A DNA stretch of 64,000 bases from Ceratodon purpureus (taxonomy: Eukaryota; Streptophyta; Bryopsida; Pseudoditrichales; Ditrichaceae). Below the pieces are notes generated by a model. It searched no databases. It was not told the origin of the DNA and was given only the letters and a program-made list of their open reading frames with translations. Below, in pieces: positions 4,379-63,906 of the stretch (position 1 is the first letter of the stretch; each line of letters begins with the position of its first letter). The stretch spans positions 1,930,464 to 1,994,463 of the forward strand of contig CM026431.1 of assembly GCA_014871385.1 (NCBI GenBank), in the 5' to 3' direction. Both the position numbers and the translations under genes were made by a program.

Positions 4379-4380
4379 TA

Positions 4381-4404
4381 AGGTAGAGGCACCCATTGTC
4401 GACC
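4381..4404. repeat. Left terminal inverted repeat of the pogo-like element
   Basis: 24 bp starting AGGTAGAGGCACC and ending GTCGACC. It pairs with 8400-8423, 21 of 24 positions matching, and is directly preceded by the TA at 4379-4380. Confidence 0.85.
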
Positions 4405-4909
4405 GGGCCCCCATACCTGTGCACTAGAGTGACATGGTAACCGTCACATGCATGACCTGTGCTCAGTATGGTAGGCGTCAGCTAATTTTCAGCGACTTGC
4501 AATGCATACACAGGATTGACGGCATGACAAATAGTGGGCTAACTGATTAAAATAGCATCGTGGTTGGTAAATGGGGCGTTGCAATTTATAGAAGGTGTGC
4601 GTTTTGGATGAAATTAGAGGTACATGCAAGTGGCAATCCGAGTTTAGGAAGACAGGTTTCAGTGGTAGCAGAATTGACTTGTGTAATCGGTGGTGAACAT
4701 AATCAGAGTTATGGATTAACGGTTTCTAGGTACAGGCAGATCATGGGGCTAACTACCACCTCATGACAATTAGATTATAAAGCAGGGCCTTCCTTGAATC
4801 CATTCAGCACAGTTTGCAGCCACAGTCTCGCTTCTAACTGACGTAGCTAAGTTATTCAATATACAGTCTCATAAGCAGTTCCAGTCTCAGATCACTTAGA
4901 TCCGAAGTC

Positions 4910-7900
4910 ATGGGTGAAGAGTTTGTTTGCCGTGGGAGTCGCCGTAGACAGCATGCAGAAGTCGATGACGATGTCTTCTTGTTACATGACGATGATGTAG
5001 ATTGCTTCCCGGAGCTGCAGTACGGTGACACTTCCGGTGGATCAGAATCAGAATTTCTGAGTGGAGATGAAGAGAGTCCAATCGGGACGCAGGACATTGA
5101 CTACAGTGACTTGCATGTTTTGCAGGATTATCGGCAGAATGGAAGAAGGGGCGGTCGACGGACTGCAGCTGAAGGTTTCGGAGCTCCTGAGCGTGGATCC
5201 GCAGCGCCTGTCGACAATGGGAGAAGGGAGGGTCGCGCTGCACCGCCGCTTCAAGGTGGAGGCCTCCTTCGGCCGGTACATCAATCACCGGAGCTGGTGA
5301 GGCCGGGCCCAGGGCTGCTTCGAAGCAGCCAGTCAGCGTTCCGCGGCCCTCGCGTTCGCTTGTATGCCAATACGCCGGCAGCCACTGGTGAACGTCGCAT
5401 GCCGCCTCGAAGTCAGCGCAGGAGGCAGCCTTCGCAACTCCGTCCAGGTATCTCTCATTCAGCTGATCCCAACTCGCTTCGTCATGGCCTGCAGCAGTCA
5501 GAGAATGTTACTGCCAGAGGATCACAAAGGCGGAGGACATGTACAGCACGTCCCAAACAAAGCCTGTGGAGTAATGAGGACTTACAGAAGGCACTAGCGG
5601 CAGTAGACGACGGACATAACATGAGGGAGGCTGCCAGAATGCACAACATACCTTATTCTTCGTTTCGGGAGTGGTGTTACGGGATGCGTACGAGCCGGAA
5701 GAAGGGGCCGCCTAGCGTTTTGAGTCCCGCTGAGGAGGACCAGTTGTGCGCCTACTTGCTGGAGATGTGTGATCGAGGATTCGGCTTGTCTCCCACAGCC
5801 CTTCGAATGAAGGTGTACGAAATAACGCAGTCTCGATGGACACCATTCCGGGATGGCATCCCAGGAAGGGGATGGATGCGGTGGTGGAAGCGGCGACATC
5901 CAGAATTGACCCTGCGCGTATCACAAGCACTTGAGTCAGCCCGTGCAAGAGGACTGTGTGAGGAGAATGTGAGAAGCTTCTACGAAAATCTGCAACACCT
6001 ATATGATTTGCATAAGTATACACCTGATAGGGTATGGAACTGCGATGAATCTGGAGCACAGGCAGGAAGAAATGGAGGGGCAGTTGTCATTGCTAAAAGA
6101 GGTGCGCGTCGGGTACATACCGTTGTGCCAAACCAAAGAGAGTGGTTATCTGTTTTGGTTTGTATCTCAGCTTCGGGATCCTCTATCCCAACATTCTACA
6201 TTTTCCGGGGTAGACGTTTTCGACAGAATTACATAGAGAAATGTGAACCTGGAGCTACAATGGCTATGCAACAGAAGGCATGGATGACGTCTTACCTGTT
6301 TTCGGCTTGGATTTCACATTTCATTGAGAGTGTGAGAAGAAACTGTGGCATCTCCCCCGAAAATCGACACCTGTTAATCCTAGATGGACATAACAGTCAT
6401 GTCACGTTTGATGTGGTTAGGGAAGCAAGCGCAGCAGGGTTAGATTTGCTAACGCTTCCTTCACACACATCACACGCACTTCAACCATTAGATGTGGGGG
6501 TTTTTAAACCTTTTAAGCAATATTTTAGAGAGTACCGAGATTACTGGACCAGCAGACACCTAAACGAAGCTGCTGCTAAGGATACATTAGCCCAGTGGGT
6601 TTCACTAGCTTTGAGGCGCTCTCTAAGTCCTAGCAACATTAAAAAGGGATTCAGTGCTACTGGAATTTGGCCATTAGATTTTAATGCAGTGAATGAGCAC
6701 ATGCGTCCCTCTGAAACGTATCAGGCAGTCGACATTGGCCTGGACACATCTGAGACTATAGCGCAGACTCAGCAGGGTGAGGGCTCTGCAGGACCGAGTC
6801 AGCAGAGAACTGCGACTGCTACTGCGACTGCTACAGCATTCGACATGGACGCTGCAAGAGAAGATGGAGAGCACGAGGACAGAAACTTATCTGTTGAAAA
6901 CCATGCCGACATTGAGGCTGAATTTGCCGAAGTTCCGGACTCAACCGCAGTGCACTTCTTCGTTGATGCTGATCCCACCGACCCCACTGCTGCAGACGAG
7001 ATAGTCGGCTTCGAGGAGGGCGGTGCTACTGTCGACTCGATCACGCAATTCCTCACGCTGCCAACTGTGGCATCAAGGGTTACTTCACGATCGCGGGACC
7101 CAATCATGGACTTCAGTAAGTCTATAATGTTGACGTCCGATCAATACATTCAAGCAGCTGCGGAATTGAAGGAAGCGAAAGCACAAGCAGCAAGGCAAAA
7201 AGAAGAAGCGAGGGTTGAAAAAGAAGAGCGACGGAAGCGCAAAGACATTGAACGCGAGGAAGCCAGAGTAGCAAAAGAGGCTCGCGCGGTGGAAGTCGCC
7301 GAGGCCCGCGCCCACAAGGCCGCCGAACGAGAGGAAGCCCGTGTAGCGAAAGCCGCCCGAGCTGCAGAGATTGCAGCGGCGAAGGCCGCCAAGGCTGCCC
7401 AACGTGAGGAAGCCCAACGACTGAAGGCGGAACGCGCCATCGCAGCTTCGGAGGCACGGGCTCGCCGAGAGTCAGAGAGGGCCCACGCAGCGGCTATGGA
7501 CCTCTTCGTCGCAGCAGATAGGGCCCAAAGGCAGTCGACGAGGGCTGCGGAGACAACACAGGGGCAACAAACTCTAAGCCGGCAGTTCCAGCAGGTTTCG
7601 ACTCTCGCCCCGAACCTCACCGCACCGAATCAAGCCATACCGAGGTTTGTTACACAGGTATCGTCTACGTTGCACTCGCCACCGGAGGATCCACTCTTCT
7701 GGCGCATGCAGCAATTACCAGTCGACAGTCAAGCAATTCGCCCCTCGCCAATCCCTCACCACTCGCAAGCGTCGCAGCACCCTCCACTTGATTTGTACAG
7801 AGGAATTCCGTGGCAATCGCAACACCTCCCGCCACAGATTGACCGAGCAAACGCACCATCAACAGCACCAACGAGCGCACAAACAGGACGAGAACATGCA

Positions 7901-7975
7901 ACAATTGATTCCGCAAACGAGGAGACGGGAGGTTCCGTTGGCAATGACCGTTGCCTGGGCGGAAGAGTAAGTTAG
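4910..7975 (+). CDS. pogo/Tigger-like DDE transposase, full length
   Basis: Intronless frame of 1021 residues; the ATG at 4910 is the first in the frame. It is the enzyme expected to cut and paste the surrounding element. Residues about 219-260 form a psq/CENP-B-type helix-turn-helix (LWSNEDLQKAL...AARMHNIPYSSFREW), followed by a second DNA-binding helical region with the GRGWMRWWKRRHPEL motif, then the DDE_1 catalytic domain. The three acidic residues are visible: D379 in WNCDESG, D492 in LILDGHNSH and D528 in LQPLDVGVFKPFK. The last two are separated by 35 residues (DD35D), a spacing within the pogo/Tigger range. The N-terminal 210 residues are acidic then basic and disordered. From about 740 to 860 there is a long charged Ala/Arg/Glu/Lys-rich coiled-coil, then a Gln/Pro/Ser-rich tail. 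The protein is about twice the usual pogo transposase length because of these extensions. A host-domesticated gene is the alternative, but the flanking inverted repeats argue for a mobile copy. Confidence 0.88.
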   Translation: MGEEFVCRGSRRRQHAEVDDDVFLLHDDDVDCFPELQYGDTSGGSESEFLSGDEESPIGTQDIDYSDLHVLQDYRQNGRRGGRRTAAEGFGAPERGSAAPVDNGRREGRAAPPLQGGGLLRPVHQSPELVRPGPGLLRSSQSAFRGPRVRLYANTPAATGERRMPPRSQRRRQPSQLRPGISHSADPNSLRHGLQQSENVTARGSQRRRTCTARPKQSLWSNEDLQKALAAVDDGHNMREAARMHNIPYSSFREWCYGMRTSRKKGPPSVLSPAEEDQLCAYLLEMCDRGFGLSPTALRMKVYEITQSRWTPFRDGIPGRGWMRWWKRRHPELTLRVSQALESARARGLCEENVRSFYENLQHLYDLHKYTPDRVWNCDESGAQAGRNGGAVVIAKRGARRVHTVVPNQREWLSVLVCISASGSSIPTFYIFRGRRFRQNYIEKCEPGATMAMQQKAWMTSYLFSAWISHFIESVRRNCGISPENRHLLILDGHNSHVTFDVVREASAAGLDLLTLPSHTSHALQPLDVGVFKPFKQYFREYRDYWTSRHLNEAAAKDTLAQWVSLALRRSLSPSNIKKGFSATGIWPLDFNAVNEHMRPSETYQAVDIGLDTSETIAQTQQGEGSAGPSQQRTATATATATAFDMDAAREDGEHEDRNLSVENHADIEAEFAEVPDSTAVHFFVDADPTDPTAADEIVGFEEGGATVDSITQFLTLPTVASRVTSRSRDPIMDFSKSIMLTSDQYIQAAAELKEAKAQAARQKEEARVEKEERRKRKDIEREEARVAKEARAVEVAEARAHKAAEREEARVAKAARAAEIAAAKAAKAAQREEAQRLKAERAIAASEARARRESERAHAAAMDLFVAADRAQRQSTRAAETTQGQQTLSRQFQQVSTLAPNLTAPNQAIPRFVTQVSSTLHSPPEDPLFWRMQQLPVDSQAIRPSPIPHHSQASQHPPLDLYRGIPWQSQHLPPQIDRANAPSTAPTSAQTGREHATIDSANEETGGSVGNDRCLGGRVS

Positions 7976-8399
7976 CGCGGGGGTTTAGAATTAGGCTCGC
8001 ACCCTTCTGTTCACCACTGAGTTTGCCTCCCGCGAGTTTAGGATACAGCTTGGATGATTGAAGCCCAGCAGGTGGCCACTTTTCTGTTTCCAAGTTGTCG
8101 ACTTCTGGTCCCTGCTTGCTCTGTAATGAGTACGATTTGTGGCAGGCACTTGTCACATGTGAGCACGATTTGTGCAAATTTTAATTGCTGGGTTTTTGTA
8201 TTCTCATTAACAGCTTCTCGTGAGTCTATTGGCTCTGTATTGGTTTCAGAGCACTTTTTGATTCTAAAATTCATAGTAATTTGCACATTGCAGAAAAAAA
8301 AACTGAAAAATCTCCATTCCTTGAGAACCTTATTTCTCTGTGCAAGAAAAATAACCCCATAGGATTCCACCTCAATTATATATCAAAAATCGCTTAAGT

Positions 8400-8423
8400 G
8401 GTCGACTTTAGGTGCCTCTACCT
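8400..8423. repeat. Right terminal inverted repeat of the pogo-like element
   Basis: Ends GGTGCCTCTACCT and is the inverted partner of 4381-4404. It is followed directly by TA at 8424-8425. Confidence 0.85.
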
Positions 8424-8425
8424 TA

Positions 8426-17805: not shown

Positions 17806-18478
17806 ATGACGGGGTCGGGAATGTCTCCGTGCGCGGCGTGCAAGTTGCTGAGACGGAGATGCACGCGGGATTGCGTGTTCGCGCCTTACTTCCCACCCGA
17901 TGAGCCGCAGAAGTTCGCTAACGTCCACAAGGTCTTCGGCGCGGCTAATGTCAATAAAATGCTCCAGGTATGTATGCATCGCGGCCGGTAAACTATGCAC
18001 TCCTCTCAAAGCAATTTCTCTCGTCATGCATACACAATCTGAAGTTTGCCATGACTCCAACCCTAACGCATCCCTTCTTTTTCCCTTCCAGGAGTTGCCC
18101 ATGGAGGCGCGAGGTGACGCGGTGAGCTCCATGGTGTACGAGGCGGATGCGCGCGTGCGCGACCCAGTCTATGGCTGCGTGGGCGCCATCTCGTCGCTGC
18201 AGCAGCAAGTCGCGCACTTGCAGACGCAGCTTGCAGTAGCGAACGCCGAAATCGTGTGCATGCAGATTAACAACGACTCTAACTCCGATTGCAGCCACGG
18301 GTACCAGAACGACGCTGGTCCGTCCCACCATGGTTACAACCACTACGGTAACCACATGTCGCCGCCGGTGCAGCCGCAGTCGCCTGAGGTTCACAGCAAT
18401 CACTACAGAGCGAACCACTACAACCACCGCTCGGAATACAACAACTCGGAGTACGGCGACCAGATGATGTGGACATAA
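17806..18478 (+). CDS. LOB-domain (LBD) transcription factor, class I
   Basis: Two exons: 17806-17967 and 18092-18478, joined in phase 0 across a 124-nt GT-AG intron, giving 182 residues. The N-terminal LOB domain has the zinc-finger-like C-x2-C-x6-C-x3-C motif (C9, C12, C19, C23 in CAACKLLRRRCTRDC). It continues with the conserved FAPYFPPDEPQKFANVHKVFGAANV block and, after the intron, the DAVSSMVYEADARVRDPVYGCVG segment. A coiled-coil L-x6-L-x3-L-x6-I (SSLQQQVAHLQTQLAVANAEI) marks it as class I. The intron sits right after KMLQ, as is usual for the family. The short C-terminal tail is rich in His, Asn, Ser and Tyr and has no recognisable domain. LBD proteins are plant-specific DNA-binding regulators of organ boundaries and development, acting in the nucleus. 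Which subgroup this one belongs to needs a tree. Confidence 0.93.
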
Positions 18479-39939: not shown

Positions 39940-42900
39940 CATAGGGCAGTAGCAAAAAGACTTGAAACTAGATTATTTTTGTGTCGAGAGGGTGGGCTGA
40001 GGGTCATCCAAATGCTGGCAGGTTTGAGAAGCTACCTTCAAATGCTACGCATTCTGCAAAGACTCCGAGTGGTATCCAGTTTCTTCAAGAAGCATCTCTC
40101 CCGTTGTAAGTTCTCAGAGAGGGCAAATGTCCTCCTACAGCCTACATGTTTTTCATTCATTGAAATCACAATTTTTCCTGTAATAAAATCATTCAAATGT
40201 TCCTTGTACGGTAAGTTACTTGAAATCCCATCCCCTTAACATTTGTGAATCAGTCTACAACTTAATATTGTACTTTGTATGTACTGGTACTTGCTCCGGA
40301 TCACAGGCACTGATTGTTTAGAAGAACAAGGACGTCGATATCATTCTCTACCCGTAGTCTGTTGTGTACCTCTGACTTGACAAGTGGGTTGAGAATATCA
40401 TGTTGGAATATGACAGTAACAGCAACATCTGCAGTTCTACTGTACTTAAACTCTTTATGTCAAAGCTTTACTTTAATTTTGCTTATGTGGACCACATTAC
40501 TTAGTGAGCAATCTATTCTACCATCCGTCAATAGCAATTTTGTTTACCCTTGAACAAATTATGTATTTATTTTGAAAAATAAGGTTTGTCTTTCAAAATT
40601 TTAATTTTTGACTCTTCATTTTTCCAAGGATAACTACTAAAAATATCCTCATATGGCTTTAAAATAAATAAAGATCCTATAAAATAAATCTTATATTTTT
40701 GTTTTTTTATATTCAAAATTTTCAAATTTCTTGTCTCTTTTGTTTTAGAATTGTTTACTAATAAACCTGCTATTGACAATTGGTATTTTTAAATCCTTCT
40801 CTTAATATCGGCTATCTCTATTAATTACCTATATTATTTAAATCATATTATTGCTTGACAACTTTAGGCAAACTTCACATTTGACTTGGGAAACATATCT
40901 AACATAAACTTGGTTAATTATATATTACATTATTTGATAACTGACACTAACTATATTTCATTGTGTAATTCATATAAAAACTATTTTATTTCATAAAGTG
41001 ATAGGCTTGTAAGTATTGAAATAAGCCATACAACTTCTTACAGATATTCAAGGATATGCAAAGTATTTTGGATAGATAGAAAATATGGTTTAAAGATCAA
41101 TGCATTGGTTTCTAATGATTTGAATTATGTTTTTTGCAAAGATTCAAAACATACAATTAAACCAACCAATGAACCACGTGAGCAATCAATGACACATCCT
41201 AAGATAAAAGATATTTGAGATACTAGATTGTTGTATAAAATATTTGTTTCTTCTTTGAACAAACTTTATCTTCAATAATGTGCAAGTTCAAAGCTTACAC
41301 ATTTAAAGTTACTATTTAATTTACACATGTGTTGAATTGTCAATTCCTTATATTTTAAAAGTCTATTACACTTCAAAATATGTTAAAAAAAAAAATTCAT
41401 CCATCTAAAGAATTAATAAATATGATAAAATCATGTCTATAAAAATCTCAAATGCAATGATTAAAAGCAATTCATTTGTCTTTGAGAGAAAGCTTGGACT
41501 AATCCTATTATTACATGTTCTATTCAAACTTCCCATAACCTATTGAAAATAAAATATTCTAGAATGAAAAATCTTTTGAAAGTTTATAATTAAAATTCTT
41601 ATATTTAATCAAAACTTCATAACTAGTTAACAATATAAATTTTTAAAAATTGACAGTAAAATAATTAAGCTTTTGAATTTTAATGAAAAATCTTCTTTGT
41701 TGTAAAAGATTAATTCTATTTGAACAAAAAAAAATGAGGTTAAAAAATCTATTAAGATTAGAAATGTAAAATATCAAAAGGAACAATAAACTAACAATAG
41801 AAAGAGAAAACTACTTACAAGCAATTATTGTAAAAATATCTAAATATATTTTTTGTGTGTAAATATTTAGCTTTTAAAGCATTTACAATTAATCAAAAAC
41901 CTAAAATTATTGTAGAAGAAAGGCTGAATCACAAGTACCAGTAATCTATTTACAATTAAAATTTCTCCACCTACTAATTGAAAGTAATGAAAAATAAATT
42001 AAAAAAAATAACTCTAGCTCTAATGAGTAAGGACTCATGTAAATTGAGTGTCCGTTTCTCTGGTATCTTGTGTCTAGGTTCAAGGGTGAAATGAATGTTT
42101 GTTTGTCAGGTATCTTGTGTCTAGGTTCAACGGTGAAATGAGTGTCTGTTTGTCAGGTACCTTGTGCCTAGGTTCAAGGATGAAATGAGTGTCTGTTTGT
42201 CAGGTATCTTGTGTCTAGATTCAAGGGTTAAATGAATGAAGGTCACATCTTTGCATGAGACTTAAAGATATATATCAATAATATCATGTTAAGGGAATGC
42301 ATGCACTACAAATTAATGCATCAAAGATACGACAGGTCATAATTCAATAAGCTGTAATATGACAAGCCGTAATCTTATAAGTGTGGATATGACTAGATAA
42401 AGTTATAATCATACAAGTCAGAATCTGCCAAGCCAAGACCCCACAAGTCAGGATTCCACATGCAACGAATCGTCATTTTCAAATATCTAGTTTATCTTGT
42501 GGTCACAACTTTTGACCACAGTTTCAATGACCAATGTCACATTCATATCTAAATGAAAGAACATATTAGAATAAAAAATTCTTAAAGGTAGTGCAAATAC
42601 TCATAGAATTGTCACCACTACCGAGGACGAATCTTCATGTTTCCAGTCAATTACTTTTTATCTTCTTTACTCCTAATTTCTAATAATTCATCACAACTTA
42701 TTTTTCCTCTACTCCAAGTTATAATCATAATATGCTGAAGAATCAAATTCTCAATTTAGAAGCATAAATATAACTACAATCTTTTTAAAATTATTTAATC
42801 ACAAACCATTTGATTAAATTAAAACTATCACCAAGTCTACAAACTCAACAAACAAGAAACCAAAAGCCTACCAACTAAAATCATAAAAAAAGTAACCCAC

Positions 42901-50105: not shown

Positions 50106-51053
50106 CTAGAGCTTCTGAGCGACTGTTTTCACAGCATCGGCAAGCGCAACCAACACTCGAGCTAGCGTTGCGGTATCCTTGGGCTTCGAGTTCTCCATCT
50201 CCATTGCCTCCTGGCGCTTGTCACTCCTTTCCAACACCTTCATGAAGCAATCGATGAGCTCCTTGGACCCATCCTTCATGGCGTGAACAAAATCGTTCAA
50301 CACCACGGGGCTGTGATCTAAACTTACTCTCGTACTATTCTGCTGCTGCTCCTGCTGCAGTTTCTTGCCTCTCCTCCTCTTCCCGCTCGAGTCTGTGTCA
50401 ATGGACTCCATGTCGTTGCCCTCACTACTCCCCACTTTGTCCTTGATGATCACCGGGGTGGAACTCGACACCGGATTTTTGATGAATTCTCGCTCCTTCC
50501 ATCTCACTCTGTCTTTCTTCTCCTCCTTCTCGTTCTGAATGGCATGCAGGCTGTAGAACACAATTTCGTCCATCTGCGGCGGCAAGCTCGCGTCCTTGCG
50601 CTCCTTGTTGGTCATGTCCTTGAAGTAATCCTTGGCACCACCACCATCCACATACTGCCACTCGCGCACCGCCTTGTAATCCTTCATCATGTTCTCCCAC
50701 TTGTCCTGGCACTGGCTGCCGCTCCGTCCCATCTCCTTGGTCTCCATGTGCATCGCCACGATCCGCCACTTCTCAGCTGCGGGCAGCTTCACTCCCTGGC
50801 TTTTGTACGCCTGGCACCGCACCCGCTCCTCCTTCTTAGCTTCGATCAGGGTCAGCATCTCCGACACCGTCCACGGCGCGCTCCGGCTGCGCTTCTTATT
50901 GCTCCCGCACCTCCCATTCAGGCACGAGCTGTCGACGGCGCCCACAACGCCGCCCCCGAAGCTGTGCAGCTGCAGCTGACTGCCGTTCATGGCGCCCCCG
51001 CCCACATCCTCCTGTGTGGGGTCCGACGCCTCGCCGGCCCCGTTCTCCTCCAT
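50106..51053 (-). CDS. Trihelix transcription factor, intronless
   Basis: A single frame of 315 residues. The frame remains open upstream to a GTG at 51062, but the first ATG is at 51053 and is taken as start. The trihelix (Myb_DNA-bind_4-type) domain spans about residues 56-170 with the three conserved Trp: W61 (APWTVSEMLTLIEAK), W96 (EKWRIVAMHM) and W119 (SQCQDKWENMMKDYKAV). Nuclear localisation signals are KKRSR at 53-57 and KRRRGKK near 230. The central part is acidic/basic and probably helical (NEKEEKKDRVRWKEREF). The C-terminus has KELIDCFMKVLERSD and an Ala/Val helix. The protein should bind DNA in the nucleus and repress or activate target genes. The GT/ASR-type subgroup is not certain. 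Its upstream region (51.1-51.7 kb) has no assigned promoter. Confidence 0.88.
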   Translation of the reverse strand: MEENGAGEASDPTQEDVGGGAMNGSQLQLHSFGGGVVGAVDSSCLNGRCGSNKKRSRSAPWTVSEMLTLIEAKKEERVRCQAYKSQGVKLPAAEKWRIVAMHMETKEMGRSGSQCQDKWENMMKDYKAVREWQYVDGGGAKDYFKDMTNKERKDASLPPQMDEIVFYSLHAIQNEKEEKKDRVRWKEREFIKNPVSSSTPVIIKDKVGSSEGNDMESIDTDSSGKRRRGKKLQQEQQQNSTRVSLDHSPVVLNDFVHAMKDGSKELIDCFMKVLERSDKRQEAMEMENSKPKDTATLARVLVALADAVKTVAQKL

Positions 51054-53901
51054 CTCTCCCACTTATTGCAAGCACTCCCGCATGTTGCAATCGCTCCCAG
51101 GGCTCGATTCCACCGCCAGGTCTGAAGATGCACACTGCATCCTCGACTCCCATTCATACCATATCCTCATCGCCCTCCACAATCTGGCGGATCTCTCCGG
51201 GAACTACTTGCTTGAATTCCTCGTCACCTGCTCTGATGCTAAGACATGATGCTCCGAACACAGATTGAATTGCAGTTTCTAAGAAGATCATCCATCAATT
51301 GGAACCAGTTGCAATTCCAATCTATGCCCTTCGCACAGACACTGGTAGGGTGTGTTGCGCGCCATTGAATCGCATGAATGGTTTGAGGTCATTGGGAGTG
51401 AGAAACCAGTTCGGGGTTGGAATTCTGCGCTGCTATCTCATCCAATGCAGATATGCACTGATCCCTGACGCGCACACATATTGACATAAACGGAAAGGAA
51501 TGAGAATTGGATAGGGAATCACCGGAGGTGCGAGAATTGGGTTGAATGGCTCCGTGGGAATGAGGAAACTAGGGCAGGAATTGGCGCCCCGGTGGTCTAT
51601 GGTAGTTAACTGAACTGCAAAAGGGCCAACCGCTCCCTGCTTCCCAAACTGTCTCCCGCTCAATCCATTACTTCGATTCTGCTTATCGCAGATCGATCTG
51701 CATCAATCCGGATCCAATCCATCAACTTGCATTGTCAACAGAGCAGGATGGGGCCTCTCTTGGCCATGCTCTGTGCTCTAGTAACCTCGTTTGGGTCATT
51801 GCGTTTGAAAACTTCGCGCCGTTCGCTCACTACCACTCGCCAATTGGGTGTGGTGCGAACAGATTTCGTTTTGGACAACTGATAGTAGTTGAAGGATTTG
51901 AATGAGGTGCCGGCCATATCCTCATCATGCTCATTCAGGTCCTGCTCTTCTGCTGCGAATCGTCTCATGGTTTAGGTCAGACGATTACACACATGCATGT
52001 CCATGAAGTTCTTCCATCCGGTTCTTCCCTCCAGACAACGTCGATAGATTACTCGATACGGCTAAATTAAATCCCTACCTGGCCTCGACAATTACAGGAA
52101 ATAATCCCGAGCTCAAGAGCCACGCATGGTCATAGATCACTTCCACTGCAGGGCCCAAGTGCACATGAGCTGACGCCTTTTCCACTTCTTCATCGAGAAC
52201 TAGTGTACATCGTCGACATGCTATACAGGCTCAGAGCTTGATCCATAATCCATCAGTACTGAATTGAAGGTCTTTGTTTAAGTCACAAGTTTTTTTCACT
52301 CTTGGGAGACGCTGATTGAGCCCACTTGAAAATTAGGCTCGAAATGCTGAACATCCAATTCGCTGATTGCGACCCCCTTGAGAATCCATGGTGCGCACAA
52401 TACTTTGTTTTACGGTAATTCGCATTGTTAGGCATCAAATATCACTTCCAGTCAATTCAGAAGTGTAATGATCCGCTTGAAATTGGAAACCACATGTCTT
52501 CTTCCGATGTCTACTGGGTGAAGATGCGCTTGAGAGACTCCTCGGCATCAGTAGGAACCTTTTGGCTTAGCCAACAGTGAACATTGATCTCTACCTGTCC
52601 ATATCTGAGTTCCCGATGCTCACTTTTGTTTCTGGAATACGCATTGAAGTGCATCAACCAAAGCCCATCTTCAACCACAAACCTCACGGATAAACATTCT
52701 TCAATACCGCCAGGCTTACTGCGTACGTTAGTCTGGAAAGACTAATCATCGTGACAATCGACCAAGCGTTTACTACAACACTTGACGATACATGACTCCA
52801 AGTGGGGAAACTCCAAGAATCTCCCTCGAGTGGGCCTCCTCTGTCTCTCGCGAGAAAACATGTATTTTGGAGATGTTTCTGGACACATGCTCCCTCGACA
52901 ATCTACACAAAGTATAACAAAGTCCTCCCAATATGAGGCAACGATTGGAAATGCTCAAATGCATGTAAGATCTCGAGACTCCTCTGTGGACCTCCACCGT
53001 GCATAGCTTGTTTACGGCTTACACACTCTGTTAGCCGTAAACATTGTACTGTTCGTTGATTGTCTATTTGAACTCTCAGCAAAAACATTCCCTCTCAAGT
53101 TCGTAAAATATCACACGATACCAGCGATGCACTTGGCAGGAAGTATGTAACACGAGTTCCAATGTCATGTCACGAATTACTTGGTAGCGGGAGTAAAGTA
53201 GTGAGAGAAATTCTGAAGTGGGTAACATTGCAAAAGCTTCGAAATTGAAATGTATCATCATGTGCTGTATCATTCAAGAATTATTTTCAGATTAGGGTTT
53301 CATATGTTCAAAGCCTGGCATGGTAGCAGAAGAATCCGTCGTCTTCACAATCAAAGCCGTTTTCAAGAGCAGTATATGTGCATGATCGCCCCAGTGTCGG
53401 GTCCTCCAGCACACTATGAAACCCCTTACAATATCTCGTTAGAAGTAGGAGACTTCATATATCAACTGCAAACGATTAACAACCTGCTAAACGTGATTAC
53501 AGGTGTGGAAATGCCTCACGGACGCAGAAGCTGTCGCAAGCCCTGCCAGAGTACCACCCTGTAACAAGATCACCACTCGGCGCAAACGAGACAGACTATT
53601 GATGTGCCGATTCAACTAGACGAAATGGGAAAATCGGTGGATAGAACGCACGAATCCACTCCACGCTCAAGCAGGTCTCCGAAAATTAACGACCTATCGC
53701 TCGGACACACCCCGCAGGCATCGAAAGCTCTTCCTCTCAGCATCCTCTACACTGAAAAGGTTAAGCTCCTCACCAACCTGACACATATCATGTTTTCTTC
53801 ACCAAGATGAATGCATACATTCCTGCATACATTTCTGCACATAAATCAGTGGACCTACATTGACAATCTGAGAAAGAGGTAGCGAGTAAATCACTGAAAA
53901 G
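51054..53901. other. Spacer upstream of the trihelix gene and of the GMI1-like exons
   Basis: A mix of promoter sequence for the minus-strand trihelix gene and DNA of unknown role. Frames at 53250-53564 and 53604-53810 may hold decayed upstream exons of the gene at 53.9 kb, but I recognise no domain in them. A minus-strand frame at 51735-51968 has no motif. Confidence 0.35.
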
Positions 53902-63734: not shown

Positions 63735-63906
63735 GCTCCAGTCAATTAACCCCGCCAGCGCAACAAATAGTGCCAGCGCTCCAGTCAATCAACTCTGCTA
63801 GCGCAATAAATAGTGTCAGCGCTCCAGTCAATCAACCATGCTAGCGCAACAAATACTGCCAACGCTCCAGTCAATCAACCATGCTAGCGCAGCAAATACT
63901 ACGGGC
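63735..63906. repeat. 43-bp tandem repeat, four copies
   Basis: GCTCCAGTCAATCAACC followed by GCTAGCGCAACAAATA recurs every 43 bp (starts at 63735, 63778, 63821 and 63864), with scattered substitutions. The frame changes between copies because 43 is not a multiple of three. Confidence 0.9.

Follow-up and report, generated by a model that had tools for sequence, protein, structure and literature searches.

A recently mobile pogo-superfamily transposon with a Fot-like transposase architecture in the moss Ceratodon purpureus

A stretch of 64,000 nucleotides from the moss Ceratodon purpureus (contig CM026431.1 of assembly GCA_014871385.1, positions 1,930,464 to 1,994,463; hereafter the window) carries a 4,043-bp element, read from the sequence at window positions 4381–8423, which is very probably an autonomous-looking, recently mobile transposon of the pogo superfamily (IS630-Tc1-mariner group) whose transposase has a Fot-like architecture. 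The basis for this is the ends of the element, the TA duplication seen against two related empty sites, the dispersed copies, purifying selection on the transposase core and an intact catalytic triad. Elements of the pogo superfamily are of a kind already known: it is the host and the scale that make this one notable.

The sequence AGGTAGAGGCACC is exact at both ends of the element, and the first 13 bases are identical. Over the 24-bp terminal inverted repeat (TIR) the two ends agree at 21 of 24 positions, the match fading beyond 24 bp, and TA adjoins each end (details in Table 1). Matched 24-bp ends and a TA duplication had been noted at this very location in a preliminary description of this DNA, made from the sequence alone. 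Among pairs of ends matched at 20 or more of 24 positions and lying 0.3–8 kb apart, the element is the sole TA-flanked pair in the window; each of five mononucleotide shuffles of the window gave none. With at most one mismatch allowed, the 13-bp end is found at two places in the window, against 0.04 expected from 100 shuffles.

The assembly comprises 362,488,568 bases in 151 contigs. Contig C6, at 110,524,308 bases, is presumably a sex chromosome; for C. purpureus a passage of PMC9273592 puts the assembled sex chromosomes at 110.5 and 112.2 Mb and the genome at ~300 Mb, and one of PMC8000587 gives a genome of 360 Mb. All genome counts that follow are lower bounds from the best-scoring candidates in this one assembly. 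Searching with the whole element returned at least 68 matching pieces from the best 40 of 226 candidates. Four independent sites, each with TA and matched ends, make up family A: the window copy (L001), L002, L003 and L005. Their mutual identity is 97.4–99.0%, the three other copies being 97–98% identical to that in the window; over element positions 1–529 the window copy and L003 are 97.9% identical. The open reading frame (ORF) of 1,021 codons is intact in two of the four (window and L003), while L002 has two in-frame stops and L005 stops and frameshifts. A fifth match (L004, contig C145) was not counted as a site: it shares its flanks with L003 (99.7% over 7 kb) and is taken to be an assembly duplicate. 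The preliminary description placed its combination of features in one copy: this is so within the window, but the genome search that it proposed found three further near-identical copies with the same ends at other sites, one of them intact.

Beyond family A lies a subfamily B, ~75% identical to A, of which four copies were fetched: one is intact with 1,008 codons (L015) and three are broken. Two copies on C6, 77% identical, are both broken. TA stands on both sides of all 12 distinct complete elements, the pattern used to find them having included TA with mismatches allowed.

Empty sites were sought for 11 insertion sites by joining ~110 bases of each flank with one TA, and the best 40 of 325 candidates were considered. 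For the intact A copy L003 an empty paralogous site on C1 matches at 100 of 101 bases and for the subfamily B copy L016 one on C9 at 89 of 91 bases; both matches run unbroken across the junction, where only one TA is present. The L003 junction is also spanned by a second match, on C7, at 75%. At the site of the intact copy L015 nine places match across the junction at 88–98%, but this is counted as a partial empty site because only 14–22 bases of the left arm align. For the other eight sites, the window's included, no match among these candidates crossed the junction by over 5 bases.

The long elements have short relatives. The end pattern of families A and B has 23 exact matches in the genome (reversed control: 0), nine of which are known full copies; the other 14 were fetched, and a partner end is present in 13 of them. 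Nine elements are 293–294 bp long, eight of which are 92–100% identical to one another, with the ninth (L034) at ~78–80% to them; two of the nine, L031 and L032, have equal flanks and are one duplicated site. Over 174–175 bp those eight match family A's right end at 75–77%. In L038 (C8:13933143-13939168) a ~294-bp element is split at TTAA by a 1.79-kb insertion with ends CCCCTAAAG...CTTTAGGGG, like those of piggyBac-type elements; uninterrupted ~294-bp copies show the empty site of this insertion.

A sister family with ends TA-AGGTGGAGGTACCCATACCCGA is represented by 19 exact matches (reversed-pattern control: 0), which form nine facing pairs, eight of them 3.8–3.9 kb apart. Four copies show 97.7–99.3% identity and have unrelated flanks. 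At C4:14348928-14362615 two facing ends of this family lie 13.7 kb apart, and could belong to an element enlarged by nested insertions.

A search of the genome with the core protein gave 1,004 first-look candidates, which as such are unconfirmed as copies; the best 100 were scored, yielding 101 rows. Sixty-eight of these contain no stop within the match, and in 41 of the 101 the open frame also reaches 800 codons or more (39 once two duplicate C145 rows are removed). The DDE_1 profile exceeded its cut-off at all 150 places scored (the best 150 of 545 first-look candidates, Lemi-type places included) and found nothing in 14 control genomes. Its eight best scores fall on C6 (six), C10 (one) and C53 (one). 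The DDE_1 match at C12:801734-802237 lies within an open frame of 1,091 codons, exceeding that of the window (1,042 codons stop to stop). Four pogo-like places (C2:8772992, C3:12211310, C4:7190818 and C6:109495066) have equal scores and an open frame of 848 codons, suggesting a further burst of very recent date.

It is possible that the family died recently and that its intact ORFs survive by chance, although we consider this rather doubtful. Such a history would fit the fact that only two of the four A copies and one of the four fetched B copies are intact; it sits poorly with two ~294-bp elements (L041 and L042) that are 100% identical at different sites, with two sister copies that are 99.3% identical, and with the 68 of 101 core matches free of stops.

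The transposase itself bears out two statements of the preliminary description: that the ORF (4910–7975) runs uninterrupted for 1,021 codons, a very long transposase in a plant host, and that the DD35D triad (D379, D492 and D528) is complete. In known DDE chemistry the aspartates of such a triad are the catalytic residues. For comparison we aligned 19 cores from this one genome, picked for diversity and open frames and thus a non-random sample. DDE_1 is matched in all 19; on the window protein it scores 85.9 bits against 29.3 for DDE_3. Thirty-five residues separate D492 from D528, a distance that recurs in 18 of the 19 cores, with 36 in L019. The N-terminal extension shows 16–53% identity to other groups. 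Downstream of the catalytic domain is a conserved module with no Pfam domain over cut-off: FLxLP is followed by (D/E)P(I/L)xD(F/Y)xxSxxLTSxxY and then by a long charged segment with many A, E, K and R residues, presumed to be a helix. Tails of a similar kind, with LTS and a charged helix, are known from animal pogo-like proteins. Among solved structures the whole protein had no match at E ≤0.1, the core as query had two, both with E >0.1, and a profile of the aligned cores had none up to E 1; NCBIfam gave a single weak match, far under its cut-off.

Three features of the pogo superfamily are present: a DDE_1 domain with a DDxD triad, helix-turn-helix (HTH) and Tc5/CENP-B-like domains, and TIRs with a TA duplication. 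According to passages of the superfamily survey of Gao et al. (2020, PMC7386202), the spacing ranges over DD29–59D and the transposases over 300–977 amino acids (aa), which the 1,021 aa of the window transposase slightly exceed. Fot/Fot-like elements are there given HTH_psq and/or HTH_Tnp_Tc5, DD35D in almost all cases and TIRs mostly of 40–60 bp; they are known from fungi (mainly), stramenopiles, some protists and algae, and are unreported from land plants in those passages. The window element has the same pair of domains and the same DD35D, and a TA target site also occurs in Fot-like elements, but its TIRs are of 24 bp and its host is a land plant. Since the ends are 24 bp long, we speak of a Fot-like architecture, as suggested by domains and spacing set against the published descriptions, and do not file the element as a member of Fot.

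The label of the preliminary description, pogo/Tigger-type, holds for the superfamily and not for Tigger. Tigger elements (reported from animals and red algae) have CENP-B_N with HTH_Tnp_Tc5 and DD29–36D, and Lemi elements (eudicots and others) have HTH_ABP1_N with HTH_Tnp_Tc5 and DD29–42D; each may carry HTH_Tnp_Tc5 alone (passages of PMC7386202). An element of either type would share DDE_1 and HTH_Tnp_Tc5 with the window protein, and both ranges of spacing include 35. Yet HTH_psq lies beside HTH_Tnp_Tc5 in the window protein and is found in 17 of the 19 cores, HTH_ABP1_N is reported in none of the 19, and CENP-B_N, not reported by Pfam for the window protein, occurs in one (E 0.0056). Lemi-type proteins, furthermore, stand apart in the same genome: L058 (C6:9954800-9956300) has HTH_ABP1_N and HTH_Tnp_Tc5, and L059 (C6:48496000-48497500), with HTH_Tnp_Tc5 only, gives an alignment of 26% over 171 residues. 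That the element is a Tigger or a Lemi is accordingly unlikely. Passer elements, described with BrkDBD and HTH_Tnp_Tc5 or HTH_Tnp_Tc5 alone (PMC7386202, in part), have DD35D as well; in the window protein it is psq that lies beside Tc5, and BrkDBD is not among the reported matches.

Selection on the protein was estimated from dN/dS by the method of Nei and Gojobori. The transposase core is under purifying selection: dN/dS is 0.12–0.13 for A against B and 0.15 for either of them against the C6 copy L013. Between subfamilies the N-terminal extension gives 0.35–0.49 and the C-terminal part 0.20–0.28. Of the 74 coding changes that separate the two intact A copies ~40 are synonymous (39.5 versus 34.5 by the counting method), against an expectation of 24% in the absence of selection (p 2e-8). 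Much of their divergence therefore accrued while the lineages were functional, and it gives no date for when the window copy inserted. Sixty-six differences are private to the window copy in comparison with L002, L003 and L005 (44 transversions and 22 transitions), and 27 of them fall at element positions 501–1250, mostly in the fast N-terminal part.

A long uninterrupted ORF under purifying selection might also be expected of a pogo-derived host gene, domesticated in the manner of CENP-B or POGK and retaining its ends. We regard this as very improbable: the four A copies are nearly identical but differ in their flanks, each being bordered by TA, two related insertions have empty sites, stops or frameshifts break two of the four A copies, and short derivatives carry these ends as well. 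The preliminary description had held that a domesticated gene would be indicated by a lack of other copies and empty sites and by conservation of the locus with its flanks across related species; what we found are dispersed copies with different flanks and empty sites, which refute a single-locus domesticated gene for the family. Fot elements are mainly fungal (a passage of PMC7386202), but contamination, for instance by a fungal contig, is the least credible explanation and is refuted by placement: the locus lies at 1.93 Mb of a 17.2-Mb contig, the window also holds a LOB domain, and related copies are found on many contigs, C1 to C14.

Several results weigh against an autonomous-looking, recently mobile transposon. 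Recent copies show higher ratios, with whole-ORF dN/dS of 0.26–0.42 inside each of the groups A and B, and a dN/dS of 0.54 for the pair of broken C6 copies. The window copy differs by 2.0% from its closest A copy, leaving its own insertion undated; its right flank is unique for ~700 bp, and it has no empty site in this assembly among the best 40 of 325 candidates. The earlier suggestion that the copy may be active is strengthened as far as recent mobility of the family goes, by the dispersed copies and the empty sites of two related copies. Matched ends were lacking, at the cut-off used, in eight of 16 other fetched loci (L019, L021–L026 and L028), although a wider locus of L028 (as L043) did reveal its ends. 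An AlphaFold model of the core from one sequence was unusably poor (mean pLDDT 38.9). Finally, viral, phage, plasmid and prokaryote collections yielded no confirmed relative: pattern searches of viral contigs gave two matches with the window core and 101 with the aligned cores, and those of a genome contig collection 84 with the aligned cores, none confirmed by tblastn, while tblastn against phages and against plasmids gave no match.

A mechanism can be proposed for such a transposon. The paired HTH domains (psq and Tc5/CENP-B-like) of the 1,021-residue transposase would bind the 24-bp ends; the DDD active site would then cut the element out by metal-dependent cutting, and the element would insert at TA, duplicating it. 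The charged C-terminal module may serve dimerisation or other contacts. Because the ends are shared, the ~294-bp relatives are presumably moved in trans by the same or sister transposases.

In passages of Gao et al. (2020, PMC7386202) pogo did not amplify significantly in land plants, where one small clade, Lemi, is present in 23 eudicots. Dupeyron et al. (2020, PMC7325037) add, in the part cited here, two sequences from Selaginella, in the DD35D part of their tree. With its 150 or more DDE_1 places and its recent, partly intact families, the moss does not agree with this picture. The balance tips modestly towards an undescribed moss pogo lineage – defined by the psq and Tc5 pair, DD35D, transposases of 0.8–1.0 thousand residues and an LTS/charged-helix tail – that has hundreds of copies and is still moving together with short derivatives, which would overturn the barely-amplified view for land plants. 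No earlier report of pogo in a moss was found in the literature searched, which is weak evidence as the Ceratodon genome paper lay outside it; nor is pogo in moss described in the cited passages of PMC10952607, PMC9033089 and PMC12550479. The finding bears on a question left open in PMC7325037 (in part): whether pogo was ancient in plants and then lost, or entered them through repeated horizontal transfer. Mutagenesis in mosses could also make use of intact copies together with their matching short derivatives.

Three known systems come closest in plants. The pogo-like clade 38 of Selaginella is likewise from an early land plant and falls among the DD35D groups of the tree (33–40), but only two sequences are described and the comparison is by description only (PMC7325037, in part). 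Lemi elements belong to the same superfamily and share DDE_1, HTH_Tnp_Tc5 and the TA target, but psq is absent from their reported architecture (PMC7386202, in part), and separate Lemi-type proteins are present in this genome. PpTc1 and PpTc2 of Physcomitrella (PMC4054914, in part) are likewise of the IS630-Tc1-mariner group, amplified in a moss and with some intact ORFs; they differ in being of Tc1 type with DD34E (PpTc1 has 1,584 bp and a 338-aa ORF), a different superfamily from pogo under the classification of Gao et al.

Table 1. Positions of the transposon's parts in the window.
Feature	Positions	Strand	Support
TA target-site duplication, left	4379..4380	.	read directly; single TA at empty sites of two related copies
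Left TIR, 24 bp	4381..4404	+	21/24 matched to right end
5' non-coding part, presumed promoter/leader	4405..4909	+	promoter role putative
Transposase ORF, 1,021 codons, no internal stop	4910..7975	+	L003 also intact at this length; L015 intact with 1,008 aa
Fast-evolving N-terminal extension, residues 1-204	4910..5521	+	first 210 aa without Pfam family
HTH_psq DNA-binding domain, residues 221-257	5570..5680	+	PF05225 over cut-off; 17/19 aligned cores
HTH_Tnp_Tc5 DNA-binding domain, residues 273-336	5726..5917	+	PF03221 over cut-off; 19/19 aligned cores
First catalytic Asp, D379	6044..6046	+	Asp in 19/19 cores
DDE_1 catalytic domain, complete, residues 411-581	6140..6652	+	PF03184, E 3.3e-24, 85.9 bits
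Second catalytic Asp, D492	6383..6385	+	Asp in 18/19 cores, Tyr in L048
Third catalytic Asp, D528	6491..6493	+	Asp in 19/19 cores
Conserved post-DDE module	7037..7560	+	recognisable in 8 aligned long proteins representing five groups
Right subterminal region common with ~294-bp non-autonomous elements	8250..8423	+	75-77% identity over 174-175 bp, eight short copies (two at one duplicated site)
Right TIR, 24 bp	8400..8423	-	end comparison
TA target-site duplication, right	8424..8425	.	read directly

Elsewhere in the window, the LOB domain, which is plant-specific, lies in a host-gene piece at 17852–18475 on the plus strand. A piece of a Myb/SANT-like DNA-binding protein, presumably of trihelix type, is found at 50109–51062 on the minus strand, and short tandem repeats occupy 42039–42273 (period 47 bases) and 63735–63898 (period 43 bases).

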